Source: Acidobacteriota bacterium (lineage in GTDB: Bacteria; Acidobacteriota; Holophagae; Holophagales; Holophagaceae). From it: a stretch of 64,000 bases of DNA. Below the pieces are notes generated by a model. That model ran no database searches. It was not told the DNA's origin and worked only from the letters and a program-made list of their open reading frames with translations. Where the stretch lies: the NCBI GenBank assembly GCA_021794095.1, contig JAJYRN010000001.1, positions 248,001 through 312,000 of the forward strand. Reading direction: 5' to 3'. Below, piece after piece: positions 7,095-39,012 of this stretch. A program made the position numbers and the translations under genes. The number at the start of each line of letters is the position of its first letter. The first letter of the stretch is position 1.

Positions 7095-7924
7095 CAGTCC
7101 GCCAGCTCAGCCAGGGCCTTCTCGTAGTCCTCGGTCTTGGGGGCCACGCCGTGCCAGCCCGCCTGGTTCTCCATGAAGCTCACGCCCTTGCCCTTGACCG
7201 TGCGGGCGCAGATCATCGCGGGCTGGCCCTTCACGGTCCGGGCCCAGGCGAAGGCCTCGAGGATCTGCGTGAAGTCGTGGCCGTCAATCTCCTTCACGGC
7301 CCAGCCGAAGGCCCGCCACTTGTCCGCCACGGGGTTGATGTTCATGACCTTCTTCACCTCGCCGTCAATCTGCAGGCCGTTCAGGTCCTGGATGACGCAG
7401 AGGTTGTCCAGCTTGTGGTGGGGCGCGGCCATGGCCGCCTCCCAGATCACGCCCTCCTGGCTCTCCCCGTCGCCGATCACGCAGTACACGCGCTGGGGTT
7501 TCTTCTGGACCTTCAGGCCGATGGCGATGCCCACGGCCTGGGGCAGACCCTGGCCCAGGCTGCCGGTGGTGACCTCCACGCCCGGGGTGTAGTGGTTCTC
7601 GGCATGGCCCTGGAGCCGGGTCGGGTACTGGCGGAAAGTGGTCAGCCAAGCCTTGGGGAAGAAGCCCTGGTCGGCCAGCAGGGCGTACTGGGTGGGGCAG
7701 GCGTGACCCTTGGAAAGCACGAAGCGGTCCCGCTCGGGATCCGTGGGATCCTCCGGAAACACCGTCATCTCGTGGTAGTAGAGCGCCACCCCCAGATCCA
7801 GCCAGCTCAAGCTGCCGCCCGGGTGGCCGCTCTGGGCCGAGTACACCTGCAGCAGGACATCCCGGCGCAGGGCTTTCGCCTTGGCCGCAAGCTCCAGCAA
7901 GGTCTCCAATCGTTGTTGCGGCAT
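7094..7924 (-). CDS. Transketolase N-terminal subunit
   Basis: The 276-residue protein corresponds to the first half of transketolase, the thiamine diphosphate-binding part. It shows SAQSGHPGGSLSWLD near the N-terminus and the cofactor motif GDGESQEGVIWEAA. Many anaerobes split transketolase into two genes, the second encoding the pyrimidine-binding half; here argS follows instead and no C-terminal half is present in the window. The start at 7924 (MPQQRLETLL) has GGAAGG upstream and agrees with family N-termini; an in-frame ATG at 7960 would add 12 residues. Confidence 0.88.
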   Translation of the reverse strand: MPQQRLETLLELAAKAKALRRDVLLQVYSAQSGHPGGSLSWLDLGVALYYHEMTVFPEDPTDPERDRFVLSKGHACPTQYALLADQGFFPKAWLTTFRQYPTRLQGHAENHYTPGVEVTTGSLGQGLPQAVGIAIGLKVQKKPQRVYCVIGDGESQEGVIWEAAMAAPHHKLDNLCVIQDLNGLQIDGEVKKVMNINPVADKWRAFGWAVKEIDGHDFTQILEAFAWARTVKGQPAMICARTVKGKGVSFMENQAGWHGVAPKTEDYEKALAELAD

Positions 7925-8101
7925 CGCCCCCATCCTTCCCCGGAGGCCCAGCGCCTCCAACTAGGATCCCCCAGGGCGGCCCCGGCGGGAAGGGGCCGAA
8001 TGACCCCAAGGCCCCGCCTTTTCCCCTTGACCCACGGCCCTTTCGCGATAGCATGGTCATTCGCGCTTACCCTGCCGTCTGGGGAAGCAGGAGACGCCCT
8101 C

Positions 8102-8365
8102 ATGGCCAATCACAAGTCCGCCGCCAAAAAAGCCCGCCGCGATGCCGAGGCCCGCCTCCGTAACCGCAGCAACCGTTCGTCTCTGAAGACCGCCGTCAAG
8201 AAGTTCCTGACGGTGATCGCCGAGGGGAACAAGGCCGAGGCCGCGAAGCTCCTGCCCGAGACCCAGGGCCTCGTGGACAAGGCCTGCCGGAAGGGTGTCA
8301 TGCACAAGAACGCCGCCGACCGCACCAAGTCCCGCCTCGCCGCCAAAGTGAACCATCTGGCGTAA
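8102..8365 (+). CDS. rpsT: 30S ribosomal protein S20
   Basis: An 87-residue, very basic protein beginning MANHKSAAKKARR, which is diagnostic for S20, and ending AAKVNHLA. It binds 16S rRNA early in 30S assembly. It is monocistronic and divergent from the transketolase gene. The last codons of the gene are part of a 106-bp tandem repeat that also duplicates its terminator. Confidence 0.97.
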   Translation: MANHKSAAKKARRDAEARLRNRSNRSSLKTAVKKFLTVIAEGNKAEAAKLLPETQGLVDKACRKGVMHKNAADRTKSRLAAKVNHLA

Positions 8366-21319: not shown

Positions 21320-24300
21320 TCAGGGCGCCACCGGGGTCTGGGGACCATTGGTGATGACGATGTCCCAGGCATAGTTGAAGGGGATCCTGTAGATGGGGCT
21401 CAGATCACCGCCTCCCGCATCCACGCTGACCCGGGCCGTGGCCGTCTTGATGGCCTCGATCCACTCGGTGCGGTTGAGGGGGCGTCCCACGGCCGTGCGG
21501 GGAACGGCCTTGAGGGCGAACACCGTCAGGGTGGCGGTGGTTCCAGGGGCCGGGCGTAATTCGGGGGGCACGTCGAACCAGCAGTACCCGGGGGCCACGA
21601 CCTCCACGCCATTGGCCGCCGTCCTGTCCGAGAGGCGCATCATGGTGGTGGTCGCATCCGTGAGGATGGGCATGGCTTCAGGATCCGGGTACTTGGTTCC
21701 GTTATACGTATAGGTCGGATAGTTCGTCGGATCCGGGAAACTACCCGGCAGGAGGAACTGCGAAGTCCCCGCAGTCGTCACCAACTGGACCACCCAGAAA
21801 TCGGGGTCCACGACCTTGGGAGTGATGTCCTGGGTGGGATTGAACCAAGTCACGCGGTAGCCACCGGTGGTGGGGCCCGTCAGCTTGCCGTTGGCATCGC
21901 GCGCCCGCTTATCCACCACCGTGTCCTGGGGTGGCACGAAGCCCAGGGAAGCCGTGGCCAATACCTGGTTATAGGTCGTGGACACCAGCGGAGTTGAAGT
22001 CGTGGGAGGCTGCATCGGCAGGGTGGTACCTGAGGCGGGTTGGGCCAGCCAGGTGCGGGCGATGTTGGCACCCGGATTCGCGTTGTACTGCGGGGTGTAA
22101 TCGGTCCAGTAGAAGCGGCCGACCCCCGTGGTGACAATGGTGGTTCCCTGGGTGCCCACGGGCGGGTTGGACGGATTGAAATCAGTCCCGCCACTGGGCG
22201 TCAGATCGAAGGTGCTCTTGTCCGGGGTGATGCCGACGGTGTCCTGGGGCCATCCCGTGGTGACATTGGAATAGAAGTAACTGAAAGGCAAGTCCAGTGG
22301 GGTGATCGAGGCAAGGGCCGAGGCGTTCAGCACCAGGGGGTGCGCCCAGACCGACGTCCAGAGGTAGTCCGCGAAGCTGAAGGCCGCCGGAGCGCCCGTG
22401 AAGGAGCGAAGCGTGGGGGCCTTGACCACGCGGTCCGGATCATTGGGATCGTAGGGAATGCTCAGATTCTGCAGGCCTCCGCTGCTGACATCGTTGGTGA
22501 CCATCGCCTTGTAGAAGGCCGCGACGGTGGGATCCACATTGGTGGGATTCAGGGCGGTATTGCAGGAGGCCGAGGACCAGCCCGCCGCATCCATATCGTA
22601 GGGGTCGGTCGAGCCCGCCGGAACCCGGAAGGCCCGAAGGGCACTCGGGGCCACGGTCTTGGTCACGGCCCCCGATACAGTCTGCGAGGACTCGCTCAGC
22701 GCGAACTGATCCAGGCTGGCTTGCCCAGCCGCCGGGGTCTCCAAGGCGGCCACCCATTCGGCAAACAGCTGGTAGGCGGGGACGGCACTGATGGGGAAGG
22801 GATTGGTGGTGAAGGCTCCCTTGTCGAGCAAGGCGCTGGAGGCAGGCTCAGCCAGCTTGTCCAGCCAGAGATCCGTCGAGGTCCCAGTGGCGAAGGGGGA
22901 CGGGGACGTGGCGCTGATCGTCCCCTGGAGCATCCGACTCAACGGTTTGGTTGTCTCGGCGGCATAGCCCTGGGCGGTGACCAGATTCAGTGTGGGGTTC
23001 CAAGGCCCGGAACTGGCCGCGGGGAATTCAAATCCGAACATGGACACCTGGGCGTTCGGGTCCGCTGTGTTCACCAGGAAGGGGAACGGCCATTTCCCGG
23101 AAATATTCTTCGGCAAGGGGTCCCCATTTTCCAGGGTCCTATCCCCATTGGGATCCCCGGTCGCAGCAGGTGCATTGGGGATGCGCATGTAGTAGGCGTT
23201 CCCATCGCTGCCAAACTTGGGAACATCCAGCCAGAAGGGCATGTTGGAACGCACGGGCACCAAGATTGCCGCATTGATTCCCTGGGCGTCCTGGACGTTG
23301 TACCCATAGGTGACACCATCCTGGAAGATCTGGATGGGCGCGCCCAGACCGTTCGCAGCTGTGGTCACGTAGGCCAGCGTGGAACCACCGGTGCTGTCCT
23401 GAATCTGCCGGTAGAGGAGATTCAGGTTGAAGTTCTCGGTGTTGATGCCATCCACGATGACCCACTTTTCCGTACTGGTCGGAACCACGGCGCTGGTGCG
23501 GCCCACGGTGGTGCAGGTGCTGTCCTGGGCATCCGTGGCATCGGTCACGGCGAGATCCACCTTGTAGGCGACGATCTGCCCAGGCACACCATCGTACTTC
23601 ACGACACCCGGGTTCTGGGTGGTGGCGTTCGCGGGCACCCCTTGCGGGAACGTCCAGGCATAGGTCAAGCTCCCTCCTGAACTCGGGGCGGTGCCAGTAC
23701 CACTGAACATCAGCTTCCCACCGGCAGGGATGACCACGACGCCTGGTCCATTAGGATCCGCCACCCAGGCCCCAGTCGTTGGATCCTGGGTGATCACCGG
23801 CACGCCCTGGCCGGTACTCTGGATGGTGGCTGGATCCATCAGAGTACCCGACGCCTGAGGTGAGGTGATGCTGGCCGTCGGGGGAGTGTTCAGAGCAACC
23901 TGGATGGTCCTGGATTGGGCAACGGCATTGGCGTTGGTACTGCGGTTATCCGTCGCATTGACGGTGACCGTGGCGGTGCCGGAGAAACTATCCGGATAGA
24001 TGTGGGTCAAGGTGACCGAGACCCCAGCCTGCGTGGGTTGCGTGGATGTTCCCGTGACGCTCACAGGCTGGCATGGGGGCGCATCGGGCCCGCCCCAATT
24101 CACGGTGTAGGAGACAGGATCGTTGTCCTGGTCCGTCAGCGTGAAGGTGAGGGTCACCATCTTGGATGTGTAGGCTGACGTGGTCGTAGCCGCAGGCGCC
24201 GTGATCGTGATCGTCGGGGCGTGGTTCGCGCCCTTGGTGGTGATGGTCATCAGGGGGCCGGTACCGGGCAGGCCCTGGATGCCCACGGTGTCGGTGGCAT

Positions 24301-27300
24301 AGGCCGTGGGCGTGGAGGTGCGGGTGCCCGCAGTCGCCGCGCCGGTGTAGGTGACCGTGAAACTGTAGGATCCGCCGCCAGTGCTGACGGCATTCGTGAC
24401 CGCGGCATTGGCATCATTGGGATTGAAGGTGATGTCGCCCACGGGAATGGGATCCGTCACCCCGGGCTGGCCCGCGCGGGGATTGGTGGCCGTCAGGGTG
24501 AACACCTGGGTCACGGTCCCGTTGAGTTCCGCGTTCAAGGTCGTGGCTGCCGGGCTGGTGAAGGCCACCACCGGCAGGGGGGTCGCCACCACTGTGAATG
24601 GCACCGCCGGGGCCCAGTCGCCCGTGCTCCCGTGGCTGTCCACCGCCTGCACCGTCACGTTCGCCGTTCCCGCGAATGTCGAGGCATAGGTGTGCGTCAC
24701 ACTCGTCGTCGCACCGCCCGCCGAGGTCTGCACCGCCGTGTTGTCCCCGAAGTTCCACACGTAGTGGTCAATCGTGTCCCCGGCGTTCGGATCTGTGGCG
24801 CTGCCCGTGAACGTGTACGACTTGTTCTGATACAGACTGCCCGTCGCAGTGGTCACCTTCGCCACCGGCGGAAGGTTCGCCTGGAGGGTGTAGGTCTGCG
24901 TGGCTGTCGTCACGCCACCCTTCCCATCGTCCGCCGTCAGCTTCACCACGGTCGTTCCCGCCGCCGCGAAGCTGTGCGTCACGGGGTTGGTCCCCGTGAC
25001 CTTGGCCGTCCCATCCCCGAAGTCCCAGGTGATTGTCGTCGGATCCCCGTTGGCATCCGTCACCGTCCCCGTGAACGTGATCGGCACGTTCGCATAGGGG
25101 CTCGTCCCCGTCGGTGTGTTCGTGAAGCTCACCACCGGCGCCGCATTGGCCAGGATGTTCATGTTCAGCGTGATCGTCTTCGTGCCGTTCGTGCGGCCAT
25201 CGCTCACCGTCAACTTCGCTGTGTAGATCCCCGCCGCCGCATAGGTATGCGTCGCGCTGATCGCACCACTGGCCGGCACCGGCGTCGTGGCGATGTCCCC
25301 CGCGCCTCCCGTGTCCCCGAAGGTGATCGTGTAGGTCATCGGATCCTTGTTCGCGTCCGTGGCCGTCCCATTGAAGGTGAACGGGACTCCCTGCCAACTT
25401 GAGTTCGTTCCGGCCGAGGGCGTCGAAGTGGAGGTGAAGCTGATGACAGGCGGGATGTTCGCCGCCTGCGTGTTGATCGTCACCGGGCCGCCGCTGGCTA
25501 CCAAACCCGTGATGCCCTGCGCATCGGTCGCCACCACCGTCGGCGTCACCGTCCGCGTGCCCACCACCGTGGCGGGCTTGTAGAGCACCACGTAGGTGTA
25601 GGTTCCATCTCCATTCGCTGTCGCGCTCTGCACCACAGCCGTCGCGTCTCCGGTCGTGAACGTCAAGGCCGAGATCGGCAGGTAGCCGGTCCCGTTCGGA
25701 TTCGTCATGGACACGATGTAGGGCAGGCTCACGCCCGTGGCCCCTAGCTCCGTGTTGTAGGTCGCGGCGCCCGCAGGATTCAGGAAGGCACCCTTCGGAA
25801 GCTGGGTCGCCAGCACCGTGAACGGCACCGCCGGGGCCCAGTCGCCCGTGCTCCCGTGGCTGTCCACCGCCTGCACCGTCACGTTCGCCGTTCCCGCGAA
25901 TGTCGAGGCATAGGTGTGCGTCACACTCGTCGTCGCACCGCCCGCCGAGGTCTGCACCGCCGTGTTGTCCCCGAAATTCCACGCGTAGTGGTCAATCGTG
26001 TCCCCGGTGTCGGGATCCGTGGCGCTGGCGGTGAAGGTGTACGACTTGTTCTGGTAGAGATTCACTGCGGCCGAAGTCACCTTCGCCACCGGGGGCCGGT
26101 TGGTGAGGATGTCCAGAGTGGCGGTCCAGGTGGTGACACCACCTTTGCCATCATCCGCGGTGACGGTAACCACGTCCGAGCCGGCCGCAGCAAAGCTATG
26201 GGTCACCGGGTTCGTTCCAGTCACCTTCGCGCTGCCATCGCCGAAATCCCAAGTGAGGGCCACGGTATCACCGTTGGCATCGCTGGTAGAGGCGGTGAAG
26301 GTGAGGGGAACATTGGCGTACAGGCTGCTCGATGGATAGGCCACGGCGAGGGTCGGCGCGGCATTAGCCTGGATGTTCAGGTTCAGGGTAATGGTCTTGA
26401 CGCTGACATTGGGCACGCCACGGCCGTCATCGGCGGTGAAGACCACGGTGTAGATGCCAGGGGCATTGTAGGTATGGGACTGATGGAGGACGGCGGCGTC
26501 CTGGGTGGGCGCGATATCGCCGGCGTTGCCCGTATCGCCGAAGGTCCAGGTGTACGTCAGGGGATCCTGGTCGGGATCCGTGGCGGTGGCGACGAAATCA
26601 ATGGGCACGCCCTGCCAGGTGGCATTGGGGCCTGCGGGGATCTTCGGCGTAGCCGTCATGGTGATGACAGGGGCGTTATCCACAGAGGACACGGTTCGGA
26701 TGGTGATGACCGGGCCGGTGACGGGGGCGCTGCTGACCCCATTCGAATCCGTCACGGTGAGCGTGGGTGTGGCGGTTCGCTGGCCAATGGCGGTATCGGC
26801 CTGGTAGGCGACTGGAATGCTCCAGTTCCCACTGCCCAGATCCGTGGGGGCGCCCACCGTGGCCTTGGGATCCCCGGGATCCATCTGGAAGCCGCTGGCC
26901 GCGAGGGCACCTGTCCCAGCATTAGCCACGTTCACGGTGAACGTGACGGTGGCGCTGCTGCCGATGGCGGGGCTGATGGTAATGGCTGCCGCGGGAGCAG
27001 TGAAGGTGGCCGTGAGGGGCGAAGCTGCGGCGTTGACCGTCAGGGAGCGGGTGACGGCGGCGGAGGTAACCTTGGCGACATTGGTGGCGGTCACGCTCAG
27101 GGTGGGTGTCCCGGCGGCCGTAAAGGCATGGACACAGGTGCCGGTGGCGACGCCATTGATCACGCTGCTGGGCGTGGTCTTCGTGGTGCCATCCCCGAAG
27201 TTCCATGAGAACGAGGCAATGGACCCGCCGATGTTGGGATCGGTGGCCGTGGCCGTGAAGGTATAGGAGGTGTACTGGGAGAGCTGGGCGTCATTAGGGG

Positions 27301-27454
27301 TCCAGCCCGCGAGGGCGGCCACCGGCGGCAAGCTGCTCTGGGGAAGAGAGGCGCCTGAGGAAGAGGACGAGCCGCCCCCGCCGCAGGCCATTGAAAGTCC
27401 CAAACCCGCTACGATCAACAGGCCACGGCTGATGCCAAGTATTCCAGGACGCAT
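21320..27454 (-). CDS. Giant PKD-repeat lipoprotein-like surface protein
   Basis: A 2,044-residue exported protein. The N-terminus (MRPGILGISRGLL...GLSMACGGGGSSSSSG) is a lipoprotein-type signal with Cys24 and a serine/glycine linker, though the lipobox is imperfect. At least seven PKD domains follow, marked by WNFGDGT, WTFGDTG, WDFGDGS, WNFGDNT and ITFGDTG, plus diverged copies. They are arranged as a super-repeat of about 408 residues. The C-terminal ~750 residues are of unknown type. The start at 27454 has GGGGG upstream. It is probably a cell-surface adhesin or binding protein; no peptidase or glycosidase motif is visible. Confidence 0.85.
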   Translation of the reverse strand: MRPGILGISRGLLIVAGLGLSMACGGGGSSSSSGASLPQSSLPPVAALAGWTPNDAQLSQYTSYTFTATATDPNIGGSIASFSWNFGDGTTKTTPSSVINGVATGTCVHAFTAAGTPTLSVTATNVAKVTSAAVTRSLTVNAAASPLTATFTAPAAAITISPAIGSSATVTFTVNVANAGTGALAASGFQMDPGDPKATVGAPTDLGSGNWSIPVAYQADTAIGQRTATPTLTVTDSNGVSSAPVTGPVITIRTVSSVDNAPVITMTATPKIPAGPNATWQGVPIDFVATATDPDQDPLTYTWTFGDTGNAGDIAPTQDAAVLHQSHTYNAPGIYTVVFTADDGRGVPNVSVKTITLNLNIQANAAPTLAVAYPSSSLYANVPLTFTASTSDANGDTVALTWDFGDGSAKVTGTNPVTHSFAAAGSDVVTVTADDGKGGVTTWTATLDILTNRPPVAKVTSAAVNLYQNKSYTFTASATDPDTGDTIDHYAWNFGDNTAVQTSAGGATTSVTHTYASTFAGTANVTVQAVDSHGSTGDWAPAVPFTVLATQLPKGAFLNPAGAATYNTELGATGVSLPYIVSMTNPNGTGYLPISALTFTTGDATAVVQSATANGDGTYTYVVLYKPATVVGTRTVTPTVVATDAQGITGLVASGGPVTINTQAANIPPVISFTSTSTPSAGTNSSWQGVPFTFNGTATDANKDPMTYTITFGDTGGAGDIATTPVPASGAISATHTYAAAGIYTAKLTVSDGRTNGTKTITLNMNILANAAPVVSFTNTPTGTSPYANVPITFTGTVTDANGDPTTITWDFGDGTAKVTGTNPVTHSFAAAGTTVVKLTADDGKGGVTTATQTYTLQANLPPVAKVTTATGSLYQNKSYTFTGSATDPNAGDTIDHYVWNFGDNTAVQTSAGGATTSVTHTYASTFAGTANVTVQAVDSHGSTGDWAPAVPFTVVATPLPVVAFTSPAATTLNAELNGTVTQVFTLTATNPRAGQPGVTDPIPVGDITFNPNDANAAVTNAVSTGGGSYSFTVTYTGAATAGTRTSTPTAYATDTVGIQGLPGTGPLMTITTKGANHAPTITITAPAATTTSAYTSKMVTLTFTLTDQDNDPVSYTVNWGGPDAPPCQPVSVTGTSTQPTQAGVSVTLTHIYPDSFSGTATVTVNATDNRSTNANAVAQSRTIQVALNTPPTASITSPQASGTLMDPATIQSTGQGVPVITQDPTTGAWVADPNGPGVVVIPAGGKLMFSGTGTAPSSGGSLTYAWTFPQGVPANATTQNPGVVKYDGVPGQIVAYKVDLAVTDATDAQDSTCTTVGRTSAVVPTSTEKWVIVDGINTENFNLNLLYRQIQDSTGGSTLAYVTTAANGLGAPIQIFQDGVTYGYNVQDAQGINAAILVPVRSNMPFWLDVPKFGSDGNAYYMRIPNAPAATGDPNGDRTLENGDPLPKNISGKWPFPFLVNTADPNAQVSMFGFEFPAASSGPWNPTLNLVTAQGYAAETTKPLSRMLQGTISATSPSPFATGTSTDLWLDKLAEPASSALLDKGAFTTNPFPISAVPAYQLFAEWVAALETPAAGQASLDQFALSESSQTVSGAVTKTVAPSALRAFRVPAGSTDPYDMDAAGWSSASCNTALNPTNVDPTVAAFYKAMVTNDVSSGGLQNLSIPYDPNDPDRVVKAPTLRSFTGAPAAFSFADYLWTSVWAHPLVLNASALASITPLDLPFSYFYSNVTTGWPQDTVGITPDKSTFDLTPSGGTDFNPSNPPVGTQGTTIVTTGVGRFYWTDYTPQYNANPGANIARTWLAQPASGTTLPMQPPTTSTPLVSTTYNQVLATASLGFVPPQDTVVDKRARDANGKLTGPTTGGYRVTWFNPTQDITPKVVDPDFWVVQLVTTAGTSQFLLPGSFPDPTNYPTYTYNGTKYPDPEAMPILTDATTTMMRLSDRTAANGVEVVAPGYCWFDVPPELRPAPGTTATLTVFALKAVPRTAVGRPLNRTEWIEAIKTATARVSVDAGGGDLSPIYRIPFNYAWDIVITNGPQTPVAP
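24600..24783. repeat. Internal 184-bp repeat of the PKD gene, copy 1
   Basis: Nearly identical (about two differences) to 25824-26007, at a spacing of 1,224 bp, which is exactly 408 codons. It encodes the end of one PKD module (VTHTYASTFAGTANVTVQ and following residues). Confidence 0.9.
25824..26007. repeat. Internal 184-bp repeat of the PKD gene, copy 2
   Basis: Second copy of the 24600-24783 repeat, in the same orientation and reading frame. Surrounding modules are far less similar at the DNA level, which suggests recent duplication or gene conversion limited to this module. Confidence 0.9.
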
Positions 27455-27595
27455 ACGCTGCCCCCACATGAGGTGATGTATCGCCTGCCAGTAAAGCAGA
27501 TTTGCAACCCATAGGGGAGGAATAAATCCGCTCACATAAATGGCAGATGCCCATCAGATCCCGGTGGATACTTGTCGAATATCGCGTATCACCCC

Positions 27596-29995: not shown

Positions 29996-30070
29996 ACTGG
30001 ACCGCATTGAATTTTTAAACACAGATTTTGGCGTCTGGAGCATTCATCCTGGAAGGATCTGGAGGCGTCC

Positions 30071-32851
30071 ATGTCCGGCCCGGCCACCCCCCTGCTCACC
30101 CCTGAGAACCTGCCCGCAGAGGGCTGGCATGTGACCCATGCGGAAGCCCAGGCCCGGCTCGCCCGCATGGCCCAGGCCCTCGGCGCCTCCGACTGGAAGG
30201 GCGTGGATGAAGGCGCCCGCTGGGTCTACGAGGTACTGCGTCCCCACAACGAGGCCGAGGAACGCGAGCTGTTTCCCCTGCTGGAGGAGATCGGCGCCGA
30301 TTCCTTGTATCAGCGCCTTTATGACGATCACCGCCAGATGTGGGAGCTGACCCTCCAGCTCCTGTCGGAGATTTCCGAAGGCCAGGTGCGCGCGCCGCGC
30401 TCCATCACGCTGCTGGGCCAGCGCCTGGTGGATCTGGTCCGGGATCACATCGAGGCCGAGGAGGAGCTGATGCTGCCCCTCCTCAAGGGCAAGTCCCTGT
30501 ACGCCTCGGACGCCGAGACCCAGGACGGCTACCTCATCCTGGAGAAGAAGCTCATCGCCCCCGAGACCTGGTCCTTTATCGTCCAGGCCCCCCAGGTGGC
30601 CCGGGGCCGGAAGCCTGGCCAGTTCTTCATGGTCGCCCCGTTCCCCGAGAGCGAGCGCATCCCCCTCACCCTGGCGGGCGGCGACGCGCGGAAGGGCTAC
30701 ATCCACTTCATCATGCAGGAAGTGGGCGCCACCACGAAGGCCATGGGCCGCCTCAGCGCCGGCGACCGCCTCTACGCCGTGGCCGGCCCCATGGGCAGCC
30801 CCACGGAGATCGTGGAGGAGGGCACCATCGTTCTCATGGCCGGTGGCTACGGCTCCGCCGCCATCCTCCCCGCCGCCGAGCTGCTGCACAGCCAGGGCCG
30901 CCGCGTGATCACCATCCTGGGCGGCCGGAGCAAGGAGCGCGTGCTGCTGGCGGACGAACTGGGCGCGGCTTCGGCCGAACTGATCGTCACCACGGATGAC
31001 GGCACCCTGGGCCGCAAGGGCCTGGTCACCGACGCCCTCAAGGACATCATCGCCCGCGAGCCCATCGCCGAAGTGGTGGCCGTGGGCCCCCTGCCCATGA
31101 TGCGGGCCGTCTCCGACCTGACGAAGCCCCACGGCATTTTCACCCTGGTGAGCCTGAACGCCCTCATGGTGGACGGCACGGGCATGTGCGGCGGCTGCCG
31201 CGTCAGCGTGGGTGGCGAGACCAAGTTCGCCTGCTTCGACGGCCCGGATTTCGATGGTCACAAGGTGGACTTCAACATGCTGCGCATGCGCCAGGACTGG
31301 TACAAGGAGTCCGAGCGTGACGCAGAGGATCCCCACGAGTGCAAGATCGGCCGGATTGCGGCCTCGGGCCCCGTGGACTACTCCAAGTACCTGAACGAGC
31401 CTGTCACGGAGCTGGACTGGCAGAACCTCGATCTGAAGACCCTCAAGCCCAGCCAGAAGATGAAGATCCCCCGCCAGGAGATGGCCTGCCAGCCCCCCGA
31501 GCTGCGAGTGTGCAACTTCGACGAGGTAAGCCTGGGCCTCAGCCCCGAACAGGCGAAGCTGGAGGCCGCCCGCTGCATCATGTGCAAGCATCCCGCCTGC
31601 ATCGAAGGCTGCCCGGTGAGCATCAACATTCCGGCCTTCCTCCAGGAGATCGTGAACGAGGATCCCAAGGCCGCTGCCCGCGTCATCAAGGAGAGCTCCT
31701 CGCTGGGTTCCGTCTGCGGCCGCGTCTGCCCGCAGGAGAAGCAGTGCGAGATCAAGTGCGTGGTGGGCATCAAGGGCCTGCCGGTCTCCATCGGCCGCCT
31801 GGAGCGCTACGCCAGCGACAGCATGCTGGGTTCGGATGAGCTGCCCCCCGTCGCGCCCGCCACGGGCAAGAAGGTGGCGGTCGTCGGCGCGGGCCCCGCG
31901 GGCCTAACCGTGGCTGGTGAGCTCATCAAGAAGGGCCACCAGGTCACCGTCTACGATGCCTTCCACAAGCCCGGCGGCGTGATGCTCTATGGCATCCCGG
32001 AGTTCCGCCTGCCCAACAAGATCGTGGATCAGGAAGTCAGCACCCTGCGCCGCCTGGGCGTCACCTTCGTGATGAACACCCTGGTGGGCCGCAGCATGAC
32101 GCTGGAGGATCTGCGCCAGGAGAACGATGCCATCTTCATGGGCACCGGCGCCGGCCTGCCCAAGATGATGGGTATCCCCGGCGAGGAGTACAAGGGCATC
32201 TACACCGCCAACGAGTTCCTCACCCGCATCAACCTGATGCGCGCGGACCTCTTCCCCGAGTACACCACCCCGGTGACCGTGGGCAAGCACGTCATCATCG
32301 TGGGCGCGGGCAATACCGCCATGGACGCGGCGCGCGCCGCCCGCCGCATGGGCGCCGAGAAGGTCACGGTGGTCTACCGCCGCACCATCAAGGAGTCCAC
32401 CGCCCGCAAGGAGGAACTGGAGCACGCCATGGAAGAGGGCGTGGAGTTCAAGTTCCTCACCACCCCCGTGCAGCTCCTCGGCAACGAGAAGGGCTGGATG
32501 ACCCACGCGGAATGCGCGGTGATGGAGCTGGGCGAGCCCGGCCCCGACGGCCGCCGCAGCCCGCGCATGACCGACGAGCGCATTACGATGCCCTGTGAAA
32601 CGTTGGTGGTGGCCCTGGGCTTCGATGTGAATCCCCTCATCGCCCAGACCGAGAAGGGCCGCCTCAAGACCCTCAAGGGCGGCGTGGTCGTGGTGAACGA
32701 GGAGACCGGCGAAACCTCCCTGCCCGGCGTCTTCGCCGGCGGCGATGTCATCACCGGCGGCGCCACGGTGATCCTGGCCATGGGCCAGGGCCGCCGCGCC
32801 GCAGCCGCCATGCACCAGCGTCTGACGGGCGAGCCCGTCACCGCGAGCTAG
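30071..32851 (+). CDS. Hemerythrin-NfnA-NfnB fusion (NADH-dependent ferredoxin:NADP oxidoreductase)
   Basis: A 926-residue fusion. Residues 1-140 form a hemerythrin-like helical bundle with the ligand pattern His20/23, His59-x3-Glu63, His87 and His126-x3-Glu130. Residues about 148-420 match NfnA (FAD/NAD-binding reductase fold) with a [2Fe-2S] motif in GMCGGCRVSVGG and FACFDGP. Residues about 450-926 match NfnB: two cluster motifs (CIMCKHPACIEGCP and VCGRVCPQEKQCEIKC), the FAD motif VVGAGPAGLTVAGEL and the NADP motif VGAGNTAMDAARAA. Nfn couples NADH, ferredoxin and NADP by electron bifurcation. The iron domain may sense or remove O2 or NO. GGAGG precedes the ATG; nifJ follows 101 bp on. Confidence 0.9.
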   Translation: MSGPATPLLTPENLPAEGWHVTHAEAQARLARMAQALGASDWKGVDEGARWVYEVLRPHNEAEERELFPLLEEIGADSLYQRLYDDHRQMWELTLQLLSEISEGQVRAPRSITLLGQRLVDLVRDHIEAEEELMLPLLKGKSLYASDAETQDGYLILEKKLIAPETWSFIVQAPQVARGRKPGQFFMVAPFPESERIPLTLAGGDARKGYIHFIMQEVGATTKAMGRLSAGDRLYAVAGPMGSPTEIVEEGTIVLMAGGYGSAAILPAAELLHSQGRRVITILGGRSKERVLLADELGAASAELIVTTDDGTLGRKGLVTDALKDIIAREPIAEVVAVGPLPMMRAVSDLTKPHGIFTLVSLNALMVDGTGMCGGCRVSVGGETKFACFDGPDFDGHKVDFNMLRMRQDWYKESERDAEDPHECKIGRIAASGPVDYSKYLNEPVTELDWQNLDLKTLKPSQKMKIPRQEMACQPPELRVCNFDEVSLGLSPEQAKLEAARCIMCKHPACIEGCPVSINIPAFLQEIVNEDPKAAARVIKESSSLGSVCGRVCPQEKQCEIKCVVGIKGLPVSIGRLERYASDSMLGSDELPPVAPATGKKVAVVGAGPAGLTVAGELIKKGHQVTVYDAFHKPGGVMLYGIPEFRLPNKIVDQEVSTLRRLGVTFVMNTLVGRSMTLEDLRQENDAIFMGTGAGLPKMMGIPGEEYKGIYTANEFLTRINLMRADLFPEYTTPVTVGKHVIIVGAGNTAMDAARAARRMGAEKVTVVYRRTIKESTARKEELEHAMEEGVEFKFLTTPVQLLGNEKGWMTHAECAVMELGEPGPDGRRSPRMTDERITMPCETLVVALGFDVNPLIAQTEKGRLKTLKGGVVVVNEETGETSLPGVFAGGDVITGGATVILAMGQGRRAAAAMHQRLTGEPVTAS

Positions 32852-32952: not shown

Positions 32953-35900
32953 ATGAGCCCGCGCGTGATGAAGACCTTGGATGGGAACGAGGCCACGGCC
33001 TCGGTGGCCCATCGCCTCAGCGAAGTCATCGCCATCTACCCCATCACGCCCTCCTCGAACATGGGCGAGTGGGCGGACGAGTGGAGTTCCCAGGGCAAGG
33101 TCAACATCTGGAAGACCATTCCCTCCGTCATCGAGATGCAGTCCGAGGGCGGCGCCGCCGGCGCGGTCCACGGGGCGATCCAGGCCGGCAGCCTGACGAC
33201 GACCTTCACGGCGTCCCAGGGCCTGCTGCTCATGATCCCCAACATGTTCAAGATCGCCGGTGAGCTGACGCCCTTCGTCATGCATGTCAGCGCCCGCACC
33301 CTGGCCACCCACGCCCTGAGCATCTTCGGCGACCACTCGGATGTGATGGCCTGCCGCATGACCGGCTTCGCCATGCTCTCCTCCGAAAGCGTGCAGCAGG
33401 CCCATGATTTCGCCGCCATCGCCCACGCCGCGACGCTGCGCGCCCGGGTGCCCTTCCTGCATTTCTTCGACGGCTTCCGCACCAGCCACGAGGTGGCCAA
33501 GATCGAGATGCTCAATGACGCGGATCTCCACCAGATGGTGCCGGATGATCTGCTGGCCCATGTGCGCAGGATGGCCCTGACGCCGGATCATCCCGTCATC
33601 CGCGGCACCGCCCAGAACCCCGACACCTTCTTCCAGGCCCGCGAGGCCTGCACGCCCTACTACGCCGCCTGCCCTGCGCTCGTGCAGCAGGAGATGGACC
33701 GCTTCGCCAAGCTTACGGGCCGCCAGTACCGCCTCTACGAGTACTTCGGCCACCCCGAGGCGGAGCGCGTGGTCGTCATCATGGGTTCCGGCTGCGACGT
33801 CACGCACGAGTACGTCGAGCACGCCATGAAGCAGGGCGAGAAGGTGGGCGTCCTGAAGGTGCGCCTCTTCAGGCCCTTCGCCATCCCCGAGTTCGTGCGC
33901 GCCCTGCCCGCCTCCGTGAAGAAGCTGGCCGTCCTCGATCGCTGCAAGGAGCCCGGCGCGCCCGCCGATCCCATGCACCTGGATGTGCTCGCCGCCCTGC
34001 GCGAGGGCCGCGAGGAAGGCCACACCCAGCTGGATCCCATCGTCGTGGGCGGCCGCTACGGACTCTCCTCCAAGGAATTCACCCCGGCCATGGTCAAGGG
34101 GGTTTTCGACAACCTGGCCCAGGCCACGCCGAAGAACCACTTCACCGTGGGCATCGTGGACGATATCAGCCACAGCTCGCTGCCCTACGATCCCGCCTTC
34201 GACGTGGAACCGGCCGATGTGACCCGCGCCCTGTTCTATGGCCTGGGCGCCGATGGCACCGTGGGCGCCAACAAGAACTCCATCAAGATCATCGCCGAGG
34301 AAACCCCGAACTACGGCCAGGGCTACTTCGTCTACGACTCCAAGAAGTCCGGCGCGATCACCATCAGCCACCTGCGCTTCGGGCCGCGCCCCATCAAGAG
34401 CGCCTATCTGGTGACCAAGGCCAACTTCATCGCCTGCCACCAGACGAGCTTCCTCGACAAGTACGAGATGCTCGAGGCCGCCGTGCCCGGCGCCACCTTC
34501 CTGCTGAACACGCCGCACGGCCCCGAGACGGTATGGGACACGCTGCCCCTGGAAGTCCAGGCGGCCATCGTGGACAAGCAGCTCAAGCTCTACGTGATTG
34601 ACGCCTACGAGGTGGCGAAGGCCACGGGCATGGGCGTGCGCATCAACACCATCATGCAGACCTGCTTCTTCGCCATTTCCGGCGTGCTCCCCCGCGAGGA
34701 GGCCATCACCCAGATCAAGAAGGCCATCCAGAAGACCTACGGCAAGAAGGGCGATGCCATCGTCCAGAAGAACTACGTGGCCGTGGACGAGACCTTGGCC
34801 CACCTGCACGAAGTGAAGGTTCCCGCTGCGGCGAACTCCGCACGCAAGCGCCCGCCCATGGTCGCCGCGGAAGCGCCGGACTTCGTCCAGCGCGTGACCG
34901 CCGTGATGATGGAGGGCAAGGGCGACCTGCTGCCCGTCAGCGCCTTCCCCGTGGACGGCACCTGGCCCCTGGGCACCACCCAGTGGGAGAAGCGCAACAT
35001 CGCCCTGGAGATCCCCGAGTGGGACGCCGGGATCTGCATCCAGTGCAACAAGTGCGCGCTGGCCTGCCCCCACGCCGCCATCCGCGCCAAGGTTTACGAT
35101 CCCGCCGGGCTGGAAGGCGCCCCCGCCACCTTCAAGGCCGTGGACTACAAGGGCCCCGAATACAAGGGCCAGAAGTACACCCTCCAGGTGGCGCCCGAGG
35201 ACTGCACGGGCTGCTCCCTCTGTGTGGCCGTCTGCCCCGTCAAGGACAAGAGCAATCCCAAGCACAAGGCCATTGACATGGTGCCCCAGGCACCGCTCCG
35301 GGAGCCCGAGGCCGCCAACTACGCGTTCTTCCTCGACCTGCCCGAGGCCGACCGCACCACCGTCAAGCTGGATGTGAAGGGCACGCAGTTCCTGGAACCG
35401 CTCTTCGAGTACAGCGGCGCCTGCTCCGGCTGCGGCGAGACGCCCTACATCAAGCTGCTCACCCAGCTCTTCGGCGACCGCACCCTCATCGCCAACGCCA
35501 CGGGCTGCTCCAGCATCTACGGCGGCAACCTGCCCACCACGCCCTACACCACCAACCGCGATGGCCGCGGCCCCGCCTGGGCCAACAGCCTCTTCGAGGA
35601 CAACGCGGAGTTCGGCCTCGGCATGCGCCTGGCCGTGGACAAGCACCGGGAATTCGCCCTGGAACTGCTCCATCGCCTGGCCCCCAGCCTCGGGGACGAC
35701 CTCGTCGCCGGCCTCGCCACCGCGGACCAGTCCACCGAAGCGGGCCTCAAGGCCCAGCGCGAACGCGTGGTGGCCCTCCAGCAGCAGCTCGCGGGGCTGA
35801 CCCAGCCGGAAGCCCGCCTGCTGGCGGATCTGGGCGACTACCTGGTGGACAAGAGCGTCTGGGTGGTCGGCGGCGATGGCTGGGCCTACGACATTGGCTA

Positions 35901-36513
35901 CGGCGGCCTGGACCACGTCCTCGCCTCCGGCCGGAACGTGAATGTGCTCGTGCTCGACACCGAGGTGTACTCCAACACCGGCGGCCAGGCTTCCAAGGCC
36001 ACACCCATGGGCGCCGGCGCCAAGTTCGCCATGGCGGGCAAGACCATGCCCAAGAAGGATCTGGGCATGATCGCCATGACCTACGGCAGCATCTACGTGG
36101 CCAAGGTGGCCTTTGGCGCCCGGGACAACCAGACCCTCAAGGCCTTCCTCGAAGCCGAGTCCTATCAGGGCCCCAGCCTCATCATCGCCTACAGCCACTG
36201 CATCGCCCACGGCTACGACCTGGCCCTGGGCGCCGAGCAGCAGAAGCTGGCGGTGGATTCCGGCCACTGGCCCCTGTTCCGCTTTGATCCCCGCCGCCTG
36301 GCCAACGGTGAGAACCCGCTCCAGCTCGACTCCGCGACCCCCAAGGTGCCGCTGGGCCAGTACGTCCGCAACGAGACCCGCTACCGCATGATCGAGCAGG
36401 CCCACCCGGAGGCCTTCAAGCGCCTGCTGGAGACTTCCCAGCATGAGATCTCCGGCCGTTTCAGCGTCTATGAGCAGCTGGCCAAGCTCACGGTGCCCGG
36501 CAAGGGCGAGTGA
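32953..36513 (+). CDS. nifJ: Pyruvate:ferredoxin (flavodoxin) oxidoreductase
   Basis: The 1,186-residue homodimer-type enzyme oxidises pyruvate and CoA to acetyl-CoA, CO2 and reduced ferredoxin. Domain order is the usual one: pyrimidine-binding domain with YPITPSSNMGEWADEW, gamma domain around residues 410-640, a two-cluster ferredoxin domain (CIQCNKCALACPH and CTGCSLCVAVCPV, about 695-770), and the thiamine-binding domain with the proximal cluster (CSGCGETPY), GDGWAYDIGYGG and SNTGGQASKATP. GGAAGGAG precedes the ATG. Its reduced ferredoxin would be the partner of the Nfn fusion upstream. PFOR is oxygen-sensitive, which gives the neighbouring hemerythrin domain a plausible role. Confidence 0.97.
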   Translation: MSPRVMKTLDGNEATASVAHRLSEVIAIYPITPSSNMGEWADEWSSQGKVNIWKTIPSVIEMQSEGGAAGAVHGAIQAGSLTTTFTASQGLLLMIPNMFKIAGELTPFVMHVSARTLATHALSIFGDHSDVMACRMTGFAMLSSESVQQAHDFAAIAHAATLRARVPFLHFFDGFRTSHEVAKIEMLNDADLHQMVPDDLLAHVRRMALTPDHPVIRGTAQNPDTFFQAREACTPYYAACPALVQQEMDRFAKLTGRQYRLYEYFGHPEAERVVVIMGSGCDVTHEYVEHAMKQGEKVGVLKVRLFRPFAIPEFVRALPASVKKLAVLDRCKEPGAPADPMHLDVLAALREGREEGHTQLDPIVVGGRYGLSSKEFTPAMVKGVFDNLAQATPKNHFTVGIVDDISHSSLPYDPAFDVEPADVTRALFYGLGADGTVGANKNSIKIIAEETPNYGQGYFVYDSKKSGAITISHLRFGPRPIKSAYLVTKANFIACHQTSFLDKYEMLEAAVPGATFLLNTPHGPETVWDTLPLEVQAAIVDKQLKLYVIDAYEVAKATGMGVRINTIMQTCFFAISGVLPREEAITQIKKAIQKTYGKKGDAIVQKNYVAVDETLAHLHEVKVPAAANSARKRPPMVAAEAPDFVQRVTAVMMEGKGDLLPVSAFPVDGTWPLGTTQWEKRNIALEIPEWDAGICIQCNKCALACPHAAIRAKVYDPAGLEGAPATFKAVDYKGPEYKGQKYTLQVAPEDCTGCSLCVAVCPVKDKSNPKHKAIDMVPQAPLREPEAANYAFFLDLPEADRTTVKLDVKGTQFLEPLFEYSGACSGCGETPYIKLLTQLFGDRTLIANATGCSSIYGGNLPTTPYTTNRDGRGPAWANSLFEDNAEFGLGMRLAVDKHREFALELLHRLAPSLGDDLVAGLATADQSTEAGLKAQRERVVALQQQLAGLTQPEARLLADLGDYLVDKSVWVVGGDGWAYDIGYGGLDHVLASGRNVNVLVLDTEVYSNTGGQASKATPMGAGAKFAMAGKTMPKKDLGMIAMTYGSIYVAKVAFGARDNQTLKAFLEAESYQGPSLIIAYSHCIAHGYDLALGAEQQKLAVDSGHWPLFRFDPRRLANGENPLQLDSATPKVPLGQYVRNETRYRMIEQAHPEAFKRLLETSQHEISGRFSVYEQLAKLTVPGKGE

Positions 36514-36524
36514 AAGGGAACGCC

Positions 36525-37517
36525 ATGGATCTCTCCACCACCTACCTCGGCCTGAACCTCGCCCATCCGCTGATGGTGGGCGCGTCCCCCCTGGTGGACG
36601 ACCTGGACACGGTCAAGCGCCTGGAGGATGCGGGCGCATCGGCCCTCGTGATGCACTCCCTCTTCGAGGAGCAGATCACCCGCGAGCAGGAAGGCACCCT
36701 GCTGGACATGGAGCTGCACGCGGAATCCAACGCGGAGGCCCTGTCCTACTTCCCCAACCCCGAGGACTTCCGTCTCGGCCCGGAGCAGTACCTGGAACAG
36801 CTCCTGCGGATCAAACAGGCCGTGGGGGTGCCCGTCATCGGCTCCCTCAACGGCATCACGTCCGCGGGCTGGCTGCACTACGGAAAGCTCATGGAGCAGG
36901 CCGGGGCCGACGCCCTGGAGCTGAATGTCTACTACTTGGCCACGGATCCCGCGGAATCCTCGGCCGCCGTGGAAAAGCGCACCCTCGACCTGGTGCGCGC
37001 CCTCAAGGCCGAAGTGAAGATCCCCCTGGCCGTGAAGCTGTCGCCCTTCTTCTCCTCCCTCGCCCACTTCGCCGTGGAGTTGGAGGCGGCGGGCGCCAAT
37101 GGGCTGGTGCTCTTCAACCGGTTCTTCCAGCCGGACATTGATCCCGAGGCCCTGGAGGCCGTGCCCAGCCTTCAGCTCTCCAGTTCCCAGGATCTGCTGC
37201 TCCGCCTGCGCTGGCTGGCCATCCTCCACGGCCACCTCAAGGGCAGCCTCGCCGTCACCGGCGGCGTGCACACGGGCCAGGATGCCCTCAAGGCGGTCAT
37301 GGCCGGCGCGAGCGCCGTGCAGATGGTCTCGGCCCTCCTGCTTCACGGCCCTGCCCGCCTGGCCCAGGTGCGCGCGGAGCTGGCCGAGTGGCTGGAGGAG
37401 CATGAGTACGAGTCCCTCCAGCAGGCCCTCGGCAGCATGGGCCTCCAGAAGTGCCCCAACCCCCAGGCCTTCACCCGGGCGAACTATATGCGGATCCTGA
37501 ACGGCTGGCGGGGCTGA
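36525..37517 (+). CDS. Dihydroorotate dehydrogenase-like flavoprotein
   Basis: A 330-residue TIM-barrel protein of the dihydroorotate/dihydropyrimidine dehydrogenase fold: VIGSLNGITSAGW, ALELNVYYLATDP, IPLAVKLSPFF and a phosphate-binding end with VTGGVHTGQDALKAVMAGA. Genes of this type often follow PFOR in anaerobes; the true substrate is not established, and pyrimidine synthesis is not implied. It starts 11 nt after the nifJ stop with AAGGGAA as ribosome-binding site, so the two are one operon. Confidence 0.82.
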   Translation: MDLSTTYLGLNLAHPLMVGASPLVDDLDTVKRLEDAGASALVMHSLFEEQITREQEGTLLDMELHAESNAEALSYFPNPEDFRLGPEQYLEQLLRIKQAVGVPVIGSLNGITSAGWLHYGKLMEQAGADALELNVYYLATDPAESSAAVEKRTLDLVRALKAEVKIPLAVKLSPFFSSLAHFAVELEAAGANGLVLFNRFFQPDIDPEALEAVPSLQLSSSQDLLLRLRWLAILHGHLKGSLAVTGGVHTGQDALKAVMAGASAVQMVSALLLHGPARLAQVRAELAEWLEEHEYESLQQALGSMGLQKCPNPQAFTRANYMRILNGWRG

Positions 37518-37590: not shown

Positions 37591-37660
37591 CCCTCATATG
37601 TAGATTGACCTCAAGATCATCTATTCTGATCCGTCGTCTATCCTTCTCGCGCAGGTGACC

Positions 37661-38206
37661 ATGCTGCCTTTGTCCCAGTCTTCCGGATACGCCGTCCTCG
37701 CCATGAGCTGCCTGGAGGATCCGGGCGGCAAGCCCACACTGGTGGTGGACGTGGCCGCCCGCACCGGGTTTCCCAGGCCCTACCTTTCCAAGATGATCCA
37801 CAAGCTGGCCCGGGTCGGGTTGGTGATGGCCAAGCGGGGCAACAAGGGCGGGGTGGTGTTGGCCCTGCCCGCCAAGGAGATCACCCTCGACCTCATCGCC
37901 GAAGCGGTGGATGGCGCCGAATGGCGAAACAAGTGCCTGCTCGGCTTCGCGGAGTGCTCCGACGACCGTGCCTGCCCGGCCCACACCTTCTGGACCACGG
38001 AACGGGACCAGATCCATCACCGCCTGAGGGGCATCAACCTCGAAGAGATCCGCACCTTCGAGCAGCAGAGCCGCACCTGGCGGTTGGCCGATGCCCTGCC
38101 CGAGCGGAAGGCCAAGCCGAAGCCGAAGGCCAAAAAGGCGGCCACCAAGCCCGCCGCCCGGAAGCCCGCTGCGGGCGCGGCCCGGCGGCCCGCCAAGAAG
38201 GCCTAG
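37661..38206 (+). CDS. Rrf2-family Fe-S regulator with basic tail
   Basis: A 181-residue transcription regulator. The winged-helix DNA-binding domain (RPYLSKMIHKLARVGLV, KRGNKGGVVLA) is followed by three cysteines (CLLGFAECSDDRACPAH) that bind an Fe-S cluster in this family. Residues about 150-181 form a Lys/Ala/Pro-rich tail (KPKPKAKKAATKPAA), unusual for Rrf2 and similar to nonspecific DNA-binding tails. The ATG at 37661 is preferred to the GTG at 37655 because the paralogue at 38548-39012 starts with the same MLPLSQ. A Crp/Fnr-type site lies upstream. Confidence 0.9.
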   Translation: MLPLSQSSGYAVLAMSCLEDPGGKPTLVVDVAARTGFPRPYLSKMIHKLARVGLVMAKRGNKGGVVLALPAKEITLDLIAEAVDGAEWRNKCLLGFAECSDDRACPAHTFWTTERDQIHHRLRGINLEEIRTFEQQSRTWRLADALPERKAKPKPKAKKAATKPAARKPAAGAARRPAKKA

Positions 38207-38523
38207 CCCTTCTCCGTGACGTCCTGGATCCACCGGTAGGCTGCCACGGCCGCCGGCATGCCCAGGGTGCCCGCCGCCAGGGCCACGACCTGTTCCATTT
38301 CGGCCGCCGTGATGCCCATGGCCTGCGCCTTGCGGGCACTGGCATGCACGGCGCCCTCCCGGCCCGCGCCGATGGCGATGGCCAGCTTCAGCAGGCGCGC
38401 CGTACGGGCATCCAGGGGGCCTTCCTGGCCGGCCTCACCCAGCAGATCCCAAGCCTGGCCCAGCTTGGGAAAACGGGACACAAAGGTCCGATAGGCCTTG
38501 GGCGGTTCAGGATGCTGGGACAT
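38203..38523 (-). CDS. Carboxymuconolactone decarboxylase (AhpD-fold) family protein
   Basis: A 106-residue all-helical protein. LDARTARLLKLAIAIGAGREGAVHASARKAQAMGITAAEM matches the CMD/AhpD fold, but the CxxC redox pair of AhpD is missing (the segment reads GREGAVH), so it is unlikely to be a thiol peroxidase partner. Its stop overlaps that of the first Rrf2 gene by 4 nt on the opposite strand, and it lies 24 bp downstream of the second Rrf2 gene, likely in one transcript with it. Confidence 0.82.
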   Translation of the reverse strand: MSQHPEPPKAYRTFVSRFPKLGQAWDLLGEAGQEGPLDARTARLLKLAIAIGAGREGAVHASARKAQAMGITAAEMEQVVALAAGTLGMPAAVAAYRWIQDVTEKG

Positions 38524-38547: not shown

Positions 38548-39012
38548 TCATCCCACGGCACTGGCCTCGGCCACCCTCCGCCGGGCGCGGCACCGTTCTA
38601 CGCCTGGATCCTGATACTGGGCCATATCCGCCAAGGTGACCTGGGACAGATGGGCCAGGATGTCCGCGCGCATGGCACCCCAGTAGGCGTGAAGGGCGCA
38701 GGGGGTCTCCTCCGTGCAGCCCAGCAGGCCCAGCAGGCACCGGCTCCGCCAGGCGGTGCCGTCAATGGCCTCGGAGAGTGTTTCCAGGGTGATGTCCTGG
38801 GCGGGCCGGGCCAGCACCACCCCGCCATGGTGGCCGCGCCGGGCCACCACCAGACCGCGCTTGGCCAGGCGATGGATCAGCTTGGACAGGTAGGAACGGG
38901 GGATGCCCGTGTCCTCCGCGATGGCCTCGACGAGGATCGGCTCCCCCCCGGGTTCATCGAGGCAACGAAGGGCGCGCAGCGCATAACCAGTGGTCTGGGA
39001 GAGCGGCAGCAC
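38548..39012 (-). CDS. Rrf2-family Fe-S regulator
   Basis: A 154-residue paralogue of the 37661 product, with the same start (MLPLSQTTGYALRAL), recognition helix (RSYLSKLIHRLAKRGLV), wing (RRGHHGGVVLARPA) and three cysteines (CLLGLLGCTEETPCALH), but no basic tail. The start is a GTG at 39012 with GGAGGAGG five bases upstream. It is divergent from iorA across 343 bp and probably regulates iorAB, itself or both. Confidence 0.9.
   Translation of the reverse strand: MLPLSQTTGYALRALRCLDEPGGEPILVEAIAEDTGIPRSYLSKLIHRLAKRGLVVARRGHHGGVVLARPAQDITLETLSEAIDGTAWRSRCLLGLLGCTEETPCALHAYWGAMRADILAHLSQVTLADMAQYQDPGVERCRARRRVAEASAVG

Follow-up and report, generated by a model that had tools for sequence, protein, structure and literature searches.

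Bifurcating enzymes are regarded as a means by which anaerobes conserve energy. Nfn takes up electrons from NADPH at the bifurcating flavin of NfnB, from which one electron travels via the [2Fe-2S] cluster and the a-FAD of NfnA to NAD+ and the other via [4Fe-4S] clusters to ferredoxin. A first-pass annotation of the DNA described here held that Nfn is normally encoded by two separate genes; this is only partly right, since fused NfnAB is already published as 'Pattern B' of PMC6405883, in which the word hemerythrin is absent. The NCBIfam family NF009414 (PRK12778) describes such proteins, with NfnA followed by NfnB on one polypeptide, and NF009413 (PRK12775) describes NfnAB-ferritin, in which complete NfnAB is joined to a C-terminal ferritin/rubrerythrin-like diiron domain of four helices. 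Among hemerythrin (HHE) domains, the H-HxxxE-H-HxxxE motif (PMC12022348) is the pattern of YtfE/RIC, with ligands His84, His129/Glu133, His160 and His204/Glu208 (PMC9052748), and of BRUTUS/FBXL5-type proteins; the partner is ScdA_N in YtfE and an E3 ligase in BRUTUS/FBXL5, and none of these proteins is known to carry a fusion to Nfn. In bacteriohemerythrins, sensor fusions included, the pattern is H-HxxxE-HxxxH-HxxxxD, with five histidines (PMC9388753). A low-potential oxidoreductase is joined or linked to a diiron peroxidase in the hydrogenase-rubrerythrin chimera CperHydR and in Rub-Bfu; the [FeFe]-hydrogenase-rubrerythrin was shown to be an H2-dependent H2O2 reductase (PMC11926857), whereas Rub-Bfu is a prediction of its authors (PMC9304861).

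The 64,000-nucleotide stretch analysed here (the window) is part of contig 16 in a genome of 2.99 Mb that is 99% complete and has its near relatives among Geothrix/Holophagaceae, and carries HHE, NfnA and NfnB on one polypeptide (Table 1). The first-pass annotation had read full-length NfnA and NfnB behind an HHE-type domain with no intervening stop, and this holds: the frame is open over 926 codons, and each domain is matched above its cut-off, namely PF01814 Hemerythrin (E 1e-12, 49.1 bits versus 25.3), NF004862/PRK06222 for NfnA (338 bits versus 220) and TIGR01316 gltA for NfnB (562.6 bits versus 471.75). The fused-NfnAB model PRK12778 spans residues 155-919 with 941 bits, under its curated cut-off of 1103, and lacks the N-terminal HHE domain that the present protein adds. 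Both Nfn halves align with the solved Nfn subunits of P. furiosus and T. maritima; the fold search gives the NfnB part 46-50% identity to the large subunits of solved Nfn/Xfn structures, and the residues that we take to be the [2Fe-2S] ligands of NfnA and the cluster ligands of NfnB are invariant among relatives. The fusion is the one strong Nfn of the genome; the single further match (E 2.5e-6) is an old-yellow-enzyme-type protein. Frames of 515 aa and 325 aa opposite the fusion are taken to be GC-rich artefacts rather than antisense genes, and no promoter or repeat signal above chance came out of scans of the surrounding sequence. Elsewhere in the window, 21320-27535 (-) encodes a 2071-aa protein with repeats that are PKD-like by eye; there too, long frames are open on other strands, and some frames look like GC-rich artefacts.

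Table 1. Coordinates of the fusion gene, its parts, its downstream neighbours and related loci (window positions unless a locus is named)
Feature	Position	Strand	Basis or remark
Shine-Dalgarno-like GGAGG	30061..30065	+	precedes ATG, read from printed sequence
HHE-NfnA-NfnB fusion gene, 926 aa	30071..32851	+	ORF listing and translation; Pfam and NCBIfam profile matches
Hemerythrin HHE domain, residues 19-138	30125..30484	+	Pfam; AlphaFold model
H23, helix-1 candidate iron ligand	30137..30139	+	47/47
H59-x3-E63, helix-2 candidate ligands	30245..30259	+	47/47
H87, helix-3 candidate ligand	30329..30331	+	47/47
H126-x3-E130, helix-4 candidate ligands	30446..30460	+	47/47
Short linker, residues 139-153	30485..30529	+	gap between Pfam and NCBIfam ranges
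NfnA (a-FAD, NAD, [2Fe-2S]) domain, residues 154-425	30530..31345	+	NF004862; 5jca_S/4ylf_A
NfnA presumed [2Fe-2S] site residues D368, C373, C376, C388	31172..31234	+	invariant in relatives' alignment
NfnB (bifurcating FAD, two [4Fe-4S], NADPH) domain, residues 475-916	31493..32818	+	TIGR01316; 4ylf_B/5jca_L
NfnB presumed cluster residues C502, C505, C510, C514, C549, C553, E556, C559, E560, C563	31574..31759	+	invariant in relatives' alignment
Pyruvate:ferredoxin oxidoreductase (PFOR)	32953..36513	+	TIGR02176, 1783 bits; 101 bases downstream of fusion
Dihydroorotate dehydrogenase-like (DHOD-like) protein	36510..37517	+	PRK07565
G435, locus L146: NfnA, NfnB, HHE	5313-6158, 6162-7577, 7629-8132		HHE is a 167-aa protein
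~270-aa proteins with C-terminal HHE	L113:3396-4232, L114:2855-3700		N-terminal half without assigned domain

The HHE domain has a candidate set of six iron ligands in the H-HxxxE-H-HxxxE pattern. Five of them (H59, E63, H87, H126 and E130) had been named correctly in the first-pass annotation, which overlooked the helix-1 ligand H23. None of the six varies among the 47 distinct HHE sequences compared, in which 21 of the 126 positions from 15 to 140 are invariant (hypergeometric p 1e-5, a statistic that ignores the relatedness of the sequences). This set consists of 38 distinct full-length relatives, fragments below 900 aa being excluded, to which sequences from further genera, one paralogue and one standalone HHE were added, one locus (L061) having been dropped as a duplicate of L107. 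The nearby H20 is not invariant (R in 2/47). The O2-carrier pattern of bacteriohemerythrins, with which the domain shares PF01814, is absent: W91 (W in 45/47, R or G in the other two) stands for the second histidine of HxxxH, and HxxxE for HxxxxD. Four helices (19-38, 42-73, 77-100 and 109-137) are predicted in the second of two AlphaFold models, with mean pLDDT 73.8 and pTM 0.47, which gives the domains without their mutual placement; the six candidate ligands sit on these helices, in a block with pLDDT mostly 72-92. The first model (mean pLDDT 46.4) was rejected as too poor. Fold searches with the whole protein were uninformative for this domain, the lists being filled by Nfn relatives and single flavin domains with no hemerythrin row, and the closest solved HHE match, YtfE, is insignificant (E 0.025), the equation with YtfE being one of ligand pattern alone. 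Residues 1-140 contain no cysteine, and ScdA_N (DUF542) with its cysteine pair has no Pfam match in the protein. By its motifs, the domain is thus a predicted diiron HHE of the H-HxxxE-H-HxxxE type rather than of the O2-carrier type.

The domain is under purifying selection and drifts faster than Nfn. In seven Geothrix pairs pS over the HHE region is 0.41-0.47 and pN 0.06-0.17, pN being 2.6 to 7.2 times lower than pS; across the 38 full-length relatives 31% of HHE positions are invariant, versus 67% and 66% of those in the two Nfn halves. Genome G436 has two copies of the fusion (L144 and L145) that are 96.1% identical in Nfn (737/767) and 52.1% in HHE (62/119); conversion within the Nfn part, or else fast divergence of the HHE, would account for this, and both copies retain all six candidate ligands. 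That the HHE is a fixed accidental fusion of no special role, its metal site serving folding only or holding another metal, is very improbable in the face of this selection and of six ligands that stay invariant in 47/47 while the domain drifts, although the existence of a genus (g21) with the same fused NfnAB and no HHE speaks for it.

Across the class, the HHE profile matches 58 of 93 genomes, 47 of which, by hand count, have the domain in frames of 880 aa or more. All 58 belong to the family of the window (Holophagaceae/Geothrix; 58/77 genomes, as against 0/16 in two other families). The remaining 11 have shorter frames, among them a standalone HHE of 184 aa in G435 and a 677-aa HHE-NfnA in G432, where NfnB occupies a separate frame; the other short frames are presumed to stem from contig ends or frameshifts. 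Of 396 sampled genomes of the phylum, 37 have an HHE match at E 0.001; 33 of these fall within the family, and the four outside it are weak, in short frames of 115-185 aa. Within the sampled genomes, the fusion is confined to one family of soil and sediment bacteria, where it is conserved over seven genera. Searches for the HHE in plasmids and scans of viral contigs returned no matches and no relatives, respectively, and tblastn of four HHE queries against 19 Nfn loci without fused HHE gave one chance-level match (E 0.99). Six loci outside Acidobacteriota (L070, L073-L077) have Nfn without HHE, the scan there resting on six exact peptide patterns, one of them from the HHE, with thin coverage.

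Within the class, three g21 genomes encode fused NfnAB of 793-807 aa without HHE, the fourth (G441) having only a different match that is 38% identical; in family f2, nfnA and nfnB occupy a frame each and likewise lack the HHE, and a close Nfn was not found in genera g19 (small genomes) and g23 or in G372 of g22. HHE-bearing sequences fall on one side of the NfnAB tree (support 50/89, with a long-branch warning), a topology that would fit either gain of the HHE after the g21 split or its loss in g21. The nearest HHE paralogues are C-terminal in proteins of ~270 aa in G192 and G152 (40% and 35% identity), which are a possible source of the fused domain. A candidate additional domain in the G152 protein (open frame 1251) was discounted: the first ~335 residues look like out-of-gene GC-rich sequence, and the match starts at residue 340.

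The standalone HHE of G435 begins 51 bases after a split nfnA-nfnB pair. It resembles the HHE of genus g16, the adjoining nfnAB lies on a different tree branch (xenologous), and the tail of the HHE reads like a remnant of an HHE-NfnA junction; this genome is a metagenome-assembled one with ~8% contamination, and the split locus lies on an 11 kb contig. The arrangement suggests that the HHE kept its place beside Nfn through an exchange of the Nfn part itself. It also bears on whether the diiron site could act as a sensor, reading O2 or redox state and switching the activity or direction of Nfn by a conformational change without turnover, since a standalone HHE that follows a non-orthologous Nfn makes gating in cis impossible there. 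In the bacterial hemerythrin fusions DcrH, Bhr-DGC and Bhr-HD-GYP, the hemerythrin senses redox state and controls the domain joined to it (PMC9388753), the present HHE is placed at the N-terminus of the NfnA flavin domain, and its much faster evolution is what an add-on might display; yet DcrH-type sensors have the O2-carrier ligand pattern that is absent here, and we consider such gating somewhat unlikely.

A diiron domain appears to be joined to Nfn a second time in the same phylum. The present protein matches NF009413 over profile positions 2-753 of 1006, the C-terminal ferritin domain being unmatched, and its own diiron domain is N-terminal, unlike that of NfnAB-ferritin, with which it shares the joining of complete NfnAB to a diiron four-helix domain. 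A search of 297 genomes of the phylum with this profile, in which no match reached the curated cut-off, found an Acidobacteriota protein (G217, L158:1492-4497) that covers positions 1-1003 with 1628.6 bits, under the cut-off of 1895; its Pfam Rubrerythrin score is 22.3 bits, 0.5 below the 22.8 cut-off, and ExxH motifs are visible. Other matching open frames cover positions 71-1003 (G103) and 1-356 plus 399-1005 in one 1070-aa frame (G266). Within one phylum, NfnAB thus seems to have been fused with two non-homologous diiron folds.

Downstream of the fusion, Geothrix loci of sufficient length have PFOR, the DHOD-like gene and Rrf2, in that order, and a histidine kinase often lies upstream; in L061/L107 the order is PFOR, DHOD-like gene, fusion. 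PFOR adjoins the fusion in Geothrix and in the sister genus g18. In the fetched flanks of L109-L112 and L068, where some contigs are short, neither PFOR nor the DHOD-like gene was found, and the same holds for PFOR in the flanks of L142-L152, again with some short contigs; the fusion loci without nearby PFOR belong to genera g16, g17, g20 and g22. The proposal of the first-pass annotation that the diiron domain protects the PFOR encoded next door is weakened as a PFOR-specific purpose, because the adjacency is absent in these other genera. In five out-group loci compared for synteny (L070, L073, L074, L075 and L077; L076 was left out), from Bacteroidota, Methylomirabilota and Riflebacteria, the DHOD-like gene (PRK07565) directly follows nfnB, and it lies two genes after the Geothrix fusion; since NfnA resembles the electron-transfer subunit of DHOD B, the DHOD-like protein may be a real Nfn partner. 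Farther along in the window are two Rrf2-family regulators, 37655-38206 (+) and 38548-39012 (-), ~50% alike by cross-match, with a carboxymuconolactone-decarboxylase-family gene (38203-38523) between them; redox or Fe-S control of the cluster by the Rrf2 pair is possible.

The proximity of PFOR in Geothrix would suit an HHE that scavenges O2 or NO, or holds labile iron, so as to protect or restore the Fe-S clusters of Nfn (and PFOR) without drawing electrons from Nfn. HerA-type proteins have the O2-carrier pattern, which counts against this role, as do the loss of PFOR adjacency in four genera, the absence of ScdA_N and the presence in the same genome of a separate protein (L099) whose sequence reads as YtfE-like in layout. 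C. jejuni HerA and HerB do shield Por and Oor from O2, preventing damage rather than repairing it (PMC4257069), and YtfE, which has the same ligands and is the closest, very weak, solved match, has been proposed as an iron donor, but gave iron only with a damaged centre (PMC9052748). Such a caretaker function is, on balance, unlikely.

The reading that we tentatively prefer, with less than even confidence, is that the protein is a working Nfn-type ferredoxin/NAD/NADP oxidoreductase whose predicted diiron HHE, an extra outlet for electrons, reacts with O2, H2O2 or NO(x) and is reduced through the Nfn flavins. The first-pass annotation's proposal that the domain could sense or consume O2 or NO at the cost of reduced pyridine nucleotide is reasonable as a prediction. 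NAD(P)H, or else reduced ferredoxin, would deliver electrons to the NfnA flavin, which would pass them to the diiron site; the simplest route would be from a-FAD/NADH, because 15 residues separate the HHE from the a-FAD domain. The diiron couples of YtfE lie at +110 and +260 mV (PMC9052748). The site would then reduce O2, H2O2 or a nitrogen oxide, yielding water or reduced nitrogen oxides, which would make the protein a self-sufficient diiron reductase, driven by NAD(P)H, that guards itself and other Fe-S enzymes, PFOR among them in Geothrix. Arguing for such a reductase are the constancy of the six ligands even where the rest of the HHE diverges, the apparent persistence of the HHE beside Nfn in the other layouts (G432 and G435), the predicted ferritin-like fusion to NfnAB in the same phylum and, by analogy, CperHydR and the proposed Rub-Bfu, both of which differ from HHE-NfnAB in electron donor module and diiron fold. 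The genome also encodes an aa3-type oxidase subunit I and has two rubrerythrin matches of nearly full length; together with a second COX1-family protein (L157), to which NCBIfam gave no name at E 1e-40, these suggest that the lineage meets oxidants. Against the reductase stand the lack of the O2-carrier pattern (W91, HxxxE), the fact that g21 manages without the HHE, the absence of a visible rubredoxin or other electron-relay motif between HHE and NfnA, and the orientation of the HHE to the flavin, which the model (pTM 0.47) leaves unfixed.

A bolder version, which we hold to be quite improbable, makes the diiron site a third, very-high-potential bifurcation branch, with reduction of H2O2, O2 or NO(x) replacing NAD+ as the exergonic acceptor. 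If true, detoxification would power the uphill transfer of electrons from NADPH to ferredoxin, the oxidant would meet the cost of the low-potential reductant needed by ferredoxin-based metabolism, and HHE-NfnAB and NfnAB-ferritin would be two independent inventions. A degraded NAD site in NfnA was considered as a sign that the HHE replaces NAD+: the motif GGYGSAAILP differs from that of most out-groups. The idea was dropped because P. furiosus and T. maritima deviate as well and the HHE-less g21 also has GG[YF]GSAAILP.

In the open-licence PMC literature we found no description of an HHE-Nfn fusion, nor of NfnAB-ferritin, and a survey of long O2-binding hemerythrins of the O2-carrier type, covering 56 architectures, has no Pyr_redox, FAD or NAD in the available part of its text (PMC4919030). 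The suggestion that the three-part architecture is undescribed stands within that literature, with the qualification that fused NfnAB is known and NfnAB-ferritin is already an NCBI model; HHE-NfnAB looks like an undescribed variant of a recognisable theme. A family-wide HHE fusion and an unrelated diiron fusion in the same phylum suggest that Nfn has been coupled repeatedly to the handling of O2, peroxide or NO. Bifurcation-driven detoxification, so far the Rub-Bfu prediction, becomes testable on one soluble polypeptide, for which the NfnAB of genus g21 is a natural HHE-less control. For the organism, the fusion may let the cell spend reduced cofactors directly on oxygen, peroxide or nitric oxide.
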